From contig DYPS01000019.1 of the NCBI GenBank assembly GCA_020719775.1, forward strand, positions 1 through 36,910: a stretch of 36,910 bases of DNA, written 5' to 3'. The notes under the pieces were generated by a model, which saw nothing but the letters and a program-made list of their open reading frames with translations, was not told the DNA's origin and did not search any database. Positions 31,014 to 33,937 of this stretch are shown here, piece by piece. The position numbers and the translations under genes are program-made. The stretch comes from Desulfosporosinus sp. Its GTDB lineage: Bacteria > Campylobacterota > Campylobacteria > Campylobacterales > Arcobacteraceae. The first letter of the stretch is position 1. Each line of letters begins with the position of its first letter.

Positions 31014-31498
31014 TCTTTTATATCCTCTAAAATTTCATTTGGAACAAGATGACTTACGCATCCTTTAAATTTTAAAATCTCTCTCACAACAGATGAACTT
31101 ACAAAAGCATTTTCCAATGTTGGCATAAAATAGATCGTATCGATATCTTTATCTAAAGAGTTGTTTGCATACCCCATTTGTAGTTCATATTCAAAATCAC
31201 TCACAGCTCTAAGTCCTCGAATAATGACACTGATATCTTCATTTTTAGCAAAATCAACAAGCAATGTATTGAATGATTTAGCTTGTACTTTCATCCCTTT
31301 TGTTGCTTTCTCTACCAATTTTACTCTTCTATCTGTATCAAACATTGGATTTTTTGAATTTGAATTTGCAACAGCTACAATAACTTCATCAAAAACATGC
31401 AAAGCTCTTTTTATAATATCCATATGTCCATTTGTAATAGGATCAAATGTCCCGCTATAAATTGCTCTTTTTTTATTTTTTTCCAAACTTAACTCCAT
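31001..31498 (-). CDS. coaD: Phosphopantetheine adenylyltransferase
   Basis: CoaD joins 4'-phosphopantetheine and ATP to make dephospho-CoA, the penultimate step of CoA synthesis. At 165 residues it has the nucleotidyltransferase motif SGTFDPITNGHMD (about 15-27), IIRGLRAVSDFEYE (about 92-105) and FVSSSVVREI (about 131-140). The N-terminus is about 8 residues longer than usual, so a later start is possible. The gene overlaps the ubiX stop by 10 nt. Confidence 0.97.
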   Translation of the reverse strand: MELSLEKNKKRAIYSGTFDPITNGHMDIIKRALHVFDEVIVAVANSNSKNPMFDTDRRVKLVEKATKGMKVQAKSFNTLLVDFAKNEDISVIIRGLRAVSDFEYELQMGYANNSLDKDIDTIYFMPTLENAFVSSSVVREILKFKGCVSHLVPNEILEDIKECIS

Positions 31499-32031
31499 CT
31501 TTTGTATAAATTATGTTCAATATTCAAAGTATCGAACCATTTTCCAATGATAAAATTTTCCATCTCTTCAAGAGTTTGTTGATTTGAATAATATCCTAAC
31601 ATTGGTGGCGAAATGATTACATTCAAATGAGCCAATTTCGTCATATTTTCTAAATGAATCACACTAAAGGGCATCTCTCTTGGGGCAAGAACAATTTTTC
31701 TTTTTTCTTTAAGCATCACTGAAAATACTCTTGTGATAAGTGTATCCGCTATCCCAACAGCGCATTTTGCTAAAGTATTCATACTGCATGGAAGTATAAT
31801 CATTGCATCTGTTTGAAATGAACCAGAAGCGATACAAGCACCAATACTCTCATCATCATAAAATAAAATATTACTGCCTTGAGGCAAAGATTCATTTTGT
31901 TCAAATTGAAGTGCTATTTTAGCACTTTTTGAAATAACACAAAAAATCTCAATATCTTTTGGTAGTAATTTAAGAAATTTCAATCCCAAACCAACACCGC
32001 TAGCACCTGTAATACCGACAACTAATTTCAT
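31489..32031 (-). CDS. ubiX: Flavin prenyltransferase
   Basis: UbiX prenylates FMN to make the cofactor of UbiD-type decarboxylases used in quinone synthesis. At 180 residues it has VVGITGASGVGLGLKFL (about 4-20), ILPCSMNTLAKCAVGIADTLITR (about 79-101), and LAPREMPFSVIHLENM (about 115-130). No ubiD is in the window. It is the first gene of the seven-gene minus-strand operon, with GGAG 6-10 nt before the ATG. Confidence 0.96.
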   Translation of the reverse strand: MKLVVGITGASGVGLGLKFLKLLPKDIEIFCVISKSAKIALQFEQNESLPQGSNILFYDDESIGACIASGSFQTDAMIILPCSMNTLAKCAVGIADTLITRVFSVMLKEKRKIVLAPREMPFSVIHLENMTKLAHLNVIISPPMLGYYSNQQTLEEMENFIIGKWFDTLNIEHNLYKRWS

Positions 32032-32182: not shown

Positions 32183-32187
32183 ATATC

Positions 32188-32256
32188 ATTTTGTATAATA
32201 TTTATATTATTAAATATACTAATTAAAATACTATAATATTTAGCATTATACAAAAT
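32188..32256. repeat. 12-bp perfect inverted repeat spanning the recombinase-like gene promoter
   Basis: ATTTTGTATAAT (32188-32199) and ATTATACAAAAT (32245-32256) flank 45 bp. Inside lie direct copies of TATAATATTTA (32194-32204 and 32232-32242). The second copy contains the likely -10, and the right arm covers the predicted start site. The composition is over 85 percent AT, so some repeats could arise by chance, but a 12-bp perfect pair is notable. Confidence 0.6.
32232..32237 (+). promoter_or_regulatory. Putative -10 box of the recombinase-like gene
   Basis: TATAAT lies 37 nt before the ATG, with a predicted start near 32244. A second TATAAT at 32194-32199 is an alternative. Confidence 0.5.
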
Positions 32257-32274: not shown

Positions 32275-32910
32275 ATGAACAAAATAATAAGTTTTATAAG
32301 AATCAATAAAAATAATGAAGAATACACTCAAAATCAAGCAATTGGAATTGCTAAATATTTACATAAAAACAATCTTCAACTTCATAATAATATTGAAATT
32401 GAACTCACTACCCCTGAAGATGAAGAGAAAATTTCAACTCTTTTGCTTGATTGTAAAAGTGACTGTACAATCTTAATATATGATCTTAATGTATTTGGAA
32501 GAACTATATCTTCAATTTTAGATATGTTAAAAAATCTTCTCAATCTTGGAGCAAGAGTTATAAGTATCAATCAAAATCTTGATCTTGAAAGCAAAGATGA
32601 TATGCTTACTAAGATGATTTTGGGTGTTATAGCTATGACTATTTCACTTGAAAAAGACTTGATGAGTTTAAGAACAAAAGAAGCATTAACAGTAAAAAAA
32701 CTTGATGGCGTAAGTCTCGGAAAACCAAAAGGGACTATTCAAAAATCTAAATTTGACAAAAAAAGAGACAAAATAGAGGAATTACTTGCCGTGGGTCTAA
32801 GTGTAAGAAAGATTGCTAAATTGCTTGGATACAATAATCACATAGGGCTGAATAACTATGTGAAAAAAAGAAATATAAGAGAAGTAAACGATTCTAAGAT
32901 TGCAAGTTAA
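32275..32910 (+). CDS. Serine-recombinase-like protein, probably catalytically inactive
   Basis: This 211-residue protein has the small serine recombinase (resolvase/invertase) layout: an N-terminal catalytic-like domain (1-105), long helix E (about 118-145, SLEKDLMSLRTKEAL), the hinge GVSLGKPKG (145-153), and a C-terminal helix-turn-helix (about 165-200). Aligned by eye to gamma-delta resolvase and Gin, the RVST active-site motif reads R9-I-N11-K, so the nucleophilic serine is Asn. Asp67 corresponds to N72 and Arg68 to V73, while R9 and R76 (Arg71) remain. It therefore probably binds DNA without cutting it. AAGGATAATAA supports the start. It ends 1 nt from the convergent alr stop. Confidence 0.85.
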   Translation: MNKIISFIRINKNNEEYTQNQAIGIAKYLHKNNLQLHNNIEIELTTPEDEEKISTLLLDCKSDCTILIYDLNVFGRTISSILDMLKNLLNLGARVISINQNLDLESKDDMLTKMILGVIAMTISLEKDLMSLRTKEALTVKKLDGVSLGKPKGTIQKSKFDKKRDKIEELLAVGLSVRKIAKLLGYNNHIGLNNYVKKRNIREVNDSKIAS

Positions 32911-32911
32911 A

Positions 32912-33937
32912 CTAAACAATCTTTCGGGGAATATTTAAATTTTGACTTGTAAGTATCTCATAGCTAATTGTATTATGCAATTGTGCTAATTTACTCACAT
33001 CTTCAAAAATACAAATCTCATCTGCTGATCCCTCAACAGCAATACTATCCATAGAGACTCTCCCTAAGACTTGTTTTCCATCAGCTGTTTTATACTCTTT
33101 CCCCCCAAGTCTTTTAAACCCATCTCCATAACCAATACTATAAGTTGATACTTCCATATCATTTGGTGCGGTGTATGTTCCACCATAACCAATTCTTTGA
33201 CCTTTTTTAAGTATTCGTGTAGCTATTTTTTTAGCATAAAGTGACAAAACAGGTTTTAATTTTGGGAAATTAAGTAGTTCAGGTCCATCAAGATATCCAT
33301 AGCTTGCTATACCCACTCTAGCGAAATCTTCATCAAAATTTTGGTGTCTAAAAAGAGCCGCTGAATTACAGCTATGAAACAAAATGTTAGGCACATCGAG
33401 TTTTTCACATATCTTTTTCACATCCTCTTTTAACCCCTTAAAAACAGTGTTTTGATAGAAAAAATCGCTTGTGAATTCATCTGCACTTTTATGGTGTGTA
33501 AAAACTCCACAAATATTTAATTTTTTTTCAAAAGCTGTTAACAAAGCCATTTCCAGCTCTTCAGGTGCTATCCCATTTCTATGCATTCCAGTATCAATTT
33601 TGATATGAACATTCGTATTCATAGGGAGTTTAGAGAGATCTTCCAAACAATTAATTGCTATGTGAAAAGTATGTGAAAAAGTATCAATTTGAGTATCAGC
33701 CAATATTAAAATAAAGTCAAATAAATGTTCTACTACAACAGCCTCTTGATATGTTTGGACAACTGCTTTTTTAAGCCCAAATTCATTTGCTAAAGTTGCA
33801 ATCTGAAGTAATCCATGACCATAAGCATTATCTTTTAACACGATAGCTATTTTTTCTTTTCCTCCCGCATGATTTGCACAAGTTTGAAGGTTGTAAAACA
33901 GATTTTCTTTGCTTAACTTAATATATGACATTTTCAC
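32912..33937 (-). CDS. alr: Alanine racemase
   Basis: Alr makes D-alanine for peptidoglycan with PLP. At 341 residues it is a little shorter than the usual 360. The PLP lysine lies in [11 protein letters not shown] (about residue 34), where the usual Ala of KANAYGHG is Asp. [24 protein letters not shown], the catalytic-tyrosine region [12 protein letters not shown], and [10 protein letters not shown] follow. The ATG overlaps the uvrC stop (ATGA). No terminator separates it from the convergent recombinase-like gene. Confidence 0.96.

Follow-up and report, generated by a model that had tools for sequence, protein, structure and literature searches.

A Tn3-type resolvase homologue without its catalytic residues as a probable local DNA-binding regulator in Arcobacteraceae

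The window analysed here, a stretch of DNA of 36,910 nucleotides, carries a gene for a serine recombinase homologue in which the nucleophile serine is replaced by asparagine. This raises the question of what such a protein does and how widely it has been kept. A preliminary description had proposed a domesticated recombinase working as a DNA-binding regulator or architectural protein, a loss that ordinary annotation would not reveal. Such genes are indeed labelled “recombinase family protein”, and because of this label the same change may hide elsewhere.

Domain layout and catalytic residues

The gene and the features within it are as follows.

32275..32910, + strand: resolvase homologue of the small serine recombinases, presumably catalytically dead; 211 aa, encoded by a single-copy gene
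32305..32307, + strand: codon 11, Asn in place of the nucleophile Ser10 (N in 80/87 orthologues, S in 30/30 active relatives)
32488..32493, + strand: codons 72-73, Asn and Val where gamma-delta has Asp67 and Arg68 (alignment)
32602..32703, + strand: helix E, residues 110-143, with altered interface positions 119, 121 and 122 (AlphaFold model; clade-specific changes)
32719..32733, + strand: GKPKG hinge, residues 149-153 (sequence, alignment)
32740..32883, + strand: C-terminal helix-turn-helix (HTH), residues 156-203, almost invariant (alignment, dN/dS)

By homology the protein is a member of the small serine recombinases, with a Resolvase N-terminal domain, helix E and a C-terminal HTH. The Pfam Resolvase domain was matched at residues 7-145 with 46.7 bits against a cut-off of 23.3, while HTH_38 (residues 164-186) remained below threshold, as did the NCBIfam model NF009949 of DNA invertases with 87.8 against 272. 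The AlphaFold model of the window protein, a check that had been recommended, reached a pLDDT of 84 and displayed the expected topology with helix E intact. Its top PDB matches were the Tn3 resolvase bound to res site III, as the best match, and the gamma-delta resolvase. Together with the GKPKG hinge, these results agree with the fold layout given in the preliminary description. No Resolvase-domain gene other than this one was found in its own genome.

Catalytic residues were assigned in an alignment of the window protein with gamma-delta, Gin, and about 95 relatives. The assignment is independent of the gamma-delta and Gin reference sequences because the active relatives align directly to the window protein. 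These closest active relatives are TnpR proteins that are about 40-45% identical over the whole length (typically about 44%), and a Tn3-family transposase gene lies in at least 11 of their loci. The nucleophile position was found to be N11, as previously described, and the Ser10 column of 87 distinct orthologues contained N in 80, I in three, S in three, and one unread residue. V73 likewise occupies the Arg68 column, in which V, S, and A occurred 85, one, and one times, respectively. Both Ser10 and Arg68 are present in 30 out of 30 closest active relatives, and Ser10 is kept in 17 out of 17 other recombinases too. The conservation of N at position 10 (80/87) and V at position 68 (85/87) rules out chance or a local mutation, and a shifted register with the serine elsewhere was ruled out by the first 15 residues, which align without gaps to the active relatives (AYIRTSTDKQ against SFIRINKNNE). 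N72 was correctly placed at the Asp67 position, but it is not diagnostic of inactivity on its own because all 30 active relatives carry Ser there.

Judged as a member of its enzyme class, the protein thus lacks Ser10 (N11) and Arg68 (V73) and retains Arg8, Arg71, and Arg125 as R9, R76, and R133, respectively, all three of which are also retained in the orthologues. The Ser39 loop is rewritten, with the Ser39 column replaced, two residues deleted, and an Arg45 column that aligns uncleanly; this further loss was absent from the list in the preliminary description. Clade-specific fixed changes also occur in helix E at positions 119, 121, and 122, where F, L, and F of the relatives became I, M, and T.

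Ser10 is present in three orthologues of an Aliarcobacter group (L074-L076), with N67 and V68 unchanged, and in the deep g6 lineage (L078-L081; genomes of about 1.3-1.5 Mb), which has Lys8 and either Val or Ser at position 68, so the loss of the serine alone is not universal. At C60 (32452-32454), conservation within the clade reaches 99%, and 30 out of 30 active relatives have Leu; this cysteine could possibly act as a redox or ligand switch. Y17 (32323-32325), close to the former active site, shows the same 99% conservation within the clade, and the relatives mostly have Leu in its place.

Distribution, neighbourhood and selection

Orthologues were matched in 99 out of 104 Arcobacteraceae genomes, mostly as one copy and with 53-89% identity, and the mobile recombinases of these genomes were set apart by mostly less than 40% identity. 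True gene loss was set aside for the five negative genomes, as in three of them the contig breaks off upstream of ubiX at a distance of 5-187 bases, and in the remaining two ubiX was not matched either. The named matches are Arcobacteraceae (Arcobacter, Aliarcobacter, Poseidonibacter, Malaciobacter, and Halarcobacter), and among 299 genomes sampled from the order no orthologue beyond this family was found above about 103 bits. In a tree of 135 rows, calculated with a quick method, the Arcobacteraceae proteins formed one clade with a support of 99 beside resolvases of Legionella, Candidatus Megaera, and others. The tree implies one change at position 68 (the loss of Arg68) and two at position 10, while the placement of the deep g6 lineage is unsure because of long branches. 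A metagenomic bin titled “Helicobacter pylori PMSS1” (L114) contained an Arcobacteraceae orthologue sharing 88% identity with the window protein, and its record name is apparently wrong. Two Arcobacteraceae genomes (L082, L083) hold intact resolvases with about 37% identity and a related HTH (GTIQTSKYD), which might cooperate or compete with the dead copy.

The gene is flanked by two genes on the opposite strand.

31489..32031, - strand: ubiX, divergent partner, conserved in most orthologous loci
32912..33937, - strand: alr, convergent neighbour, in few relatives only

A divergent arrangement of the gene and ubiX-coaD-tmk was present in almost every locus that extended far enough; the exceptions are the g6 and g7 lineages, in which the gene lies away from ubiX. 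Downstream, rplI, hslV, and hslU occurred in 58 distinct loci, and alr and uvrC in only six, window included. Of the synteny with ubiX or alr for which a check had been proposed, the ubiX side is therefore conserved, whereas alr is confined to few relatives and rplI-hslV-hslU are usual in its place. The neighbours are housekeeping genes and the Tn3 transposase domain PF01526 had no match in the genome of the window, consistent with the transposon-free housekeeping setting reported before.

Median pairwise dN/dS was 0.21 for the whole protein, 0.23 for residues 1-145, and 0.09 for residues 146-202, values which are rough because the pairs are non-independent and many have a high dS. Purifying selection acts on the protein and constrains the HTH most. 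This HTH is almost invariant in the clade and nearly identical to that of the active TnpR relatives.

The upstream array

Three elements were located between ubiX and the gene.

32184..32200, + strand: conserved 17-mer TATCATTTTGTATAATA, operator-like, sole match in the window, at 18.4 bits against 3.5 for the next best
32192..32220, no strand: 29-bp dyad with inward-facing arms TGTATAATA...AAATATACT, res-like and a candidate for binding site 1
32232..32252, no strand: inverted TATAAT...ATTATACA close to the ribosome-binding site, a candidate for the second site

The 17-mer, with the consensus TWWCATTTTGTATAAMT, appeared about 80 bp upstream of the gene in about 80 out of 84 orthologues, with distances of 45 bases in one Aliarcobacter group and 90 in another group. 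Its median score was 20.9 bits compared to 8.2 for the shuffled 99th percentile. Since a half-site z-score scan was dominated by A/T matches, it was replaced by TGT/ACA offsets anchored on the 17-mer. These revealed ACA-N3-TGT units with a period of about 33 bp, which amount to adjacent inward-facing dyads of about 28-30 bp. In a binomial test, their recurrence reached p values as low as 1e-48 at the anchor and of at most 1e-12 at unanchored positions. TGTATAA occurred in 80 out of 84 Arcobacteraceae upstream regions (12.2 expected), in 20 out of 30 of those of active relatives (4.1 expected), and in 4 out of 17 for other recombinases. As this core resembles a -10 hexamer, part of the conservation could be due to a promoter. 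No Rfam family was found in the upstream region.

In the res regions of the relatives, the same TGTATAA half-sites flank the palindromic core AACGnnCGTT, which is likely their crossover site. This particular core was found in 0 out of 84 Arcobacteraceae upstream regions. Measured against TnpR/res systems, an inverted half-site array (of putative sites) is thus present upstream, while this crossover core and a linked transposase are absent. From its half-sites, the array may represent accessory sites derived from res.

Beyond the locus, the 15-mer core was no more common genome-wide than its reversed control. Among 30 loci fetched with it, 18 contain the resolvase gene itself, and no conserved intergenic target was common to the other 12, as 10 of these matches lie inside genes. 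The two-unit array pattern occurred mainly at the gene's own locus, together with what look like coding matches. With no second conserved target from the 15-mer or array patterns, a wider regulon was ruled against.

Interpretation and comparison with known systems

On sequence grounds, the protein is probably a Tn3-type resolvase domesticated into a non-cutting dimeric DNA-binding regulator of its own locus. A domesticated DNA-binding protein is the best supported reading because of the family-wide losses, the purifying selection, which is strongest in the HTH, and the operator-like array upstream; the proposal of a catalytically dead recombinase kept for DNA binding thus appears well founded. 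A TnpR would have been captured once by the Arcobacteraceae ancestor and have become established next to ubiX, with rplI-hslV-hslU on its other side in most lineages. Strand cleavage would then have been lost via Arg68, the Ser39 loop, and Ser10, while the hinge and the HTH were kept. The dimer would occupy the array of inverted TGTATAA-type half-sites as a remnant of the accessory part of res, and this occupancy would control its own promoter and probably also the ubiX operon opposite and rplI-hslVU downstream. We infer binding of the array, repression rather than activation, and control of neighbouring genes, with ubiX and rplI-hslVU being candidates by position. TnpR of Tn3 represses its own promoter and that of the transposase from res, in which site III adjoins tnpR (PMC7157771). 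By analogy, the simplest account would be that the Arcobacteraceae protein kept this autorepressor role and lost recombination.

Regulation of itself only would be odd, however, with no regulon found beyond the locus, and in g6 and g7 the gene lies away from ubiX. Autoregulation alone is also a thin reason for family-wide retention, which speaks for a DNA-bridging or nucleoid-architectural protein with many weak sites genome-wide, of which the array at its own gene is merely the strongest. The recombinase fold with helix E intact in the model and the A/T-rich half-sites fit such a protein, but strict patterns were not enriched outside the locus, the 15-mer was about as common as its reversed control, and 10 of the 12 non-self matches examined fall inside genes, so this explanation is rather unlikely. 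As only one conserved target was found, a local regulator is favoured over the architectural half of the original proposal. Somewhat less probable again is that the array belongs to another regulator or is a plain promoter and that the protein has another role, e.g., in protein contacts. While the likeness of TGTATAA to a -10 element and the clade-specific invariant C60 and Y17, which suggest a new function, support this, relatives that share this HTH have matching half-sites with matching paired spacing in their res regions, and no other part of the protein is as constrained as the HTH.

Still further down ranks a recombinase that remains active with a different nucleophile. Tyr17, 99% conserved in the clade, would be available, and Arg8, Arg71, and Arg125 are retained. 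This is very improbable given that Arg68 is gone, the Ser39 loop is shorter, the helix E interface is altered, and the crossover core is absent from 84 out of 84 upstream regions. A decaying relic or sequencing artefact, for which the missing catalytic residues might speak, is contradicted by selection (dN/dS of 0.21), intact ORFs across the family, and the conserved place and upstream array, and is hardly credible. In addition to regulating its own locus, the dead protein might conceivably occupy the res sites of incoming related transposons, silencing the transposase and blocking resolution as a host-owned silencer. This speculative role, which we consider improbable, is suggested by a DNA-reading head that is almost unchanged from that of Tn3-family resolvases; its effect would not be absolute, since Tn3-family transposases are present in 13 out of 104 Arcobacteraceae genomes.

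Judged from sequence evidence, a serine resolvase without catalysis appears to belong to the core genes of an entire bacterial family, retained together with the apparent accessory part of its own res site. Among recruited regulators, sections of a review of mobile-element recruitment discuss proteins of the Xre and ribbon-helix-helix types, and dead serine resolvases are not listed there (PMC8987985). No inactive serine resolvase serving as a regulator was found in the literature searched, which covered few subscription journals. The Ser10/Arg68 pair offers an easy screen for similar losses, and the locus would allow the repressor function of TnpR to be tested in natural separation from recombination.

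The protein resembles Tn3-family TnpR/res systems (gamma-delta, Tn3) in its fold, hinge, HTH, divergent arrangement, and paired half-sites upstream of its own gene. It differs from them in lacking Ser10, Arg68, the Ser39 loop, the crossover core, and the transposase, and in being encoded by a single-copy, chromosomal, vertically inherited gene. To the TnpR proteins that Tn3-family elements encode in Legionella, Candidatus Megaera, and others (L034-L036, L163-L192) it is connected by a nearly identical HTH, while 30 out of 30 of these relatives keep Ser10 and Arg68, most of their upstream regions have AACGnnCGTT, and several are linked to tnpA. With the DNA invertases Gin, Hin, and Mpi it shares the superfamily and the domain order, but those are active and tied to invertible segments. 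RNA-guided regulators derived from a transposon nuclease that lost cutting followed the same course from mobile-element nuclease through the loss of cutting to regulator; they are unrelated proteins, however, and recognition by the Arcobacteraceae protein would be achieved by its HTH.
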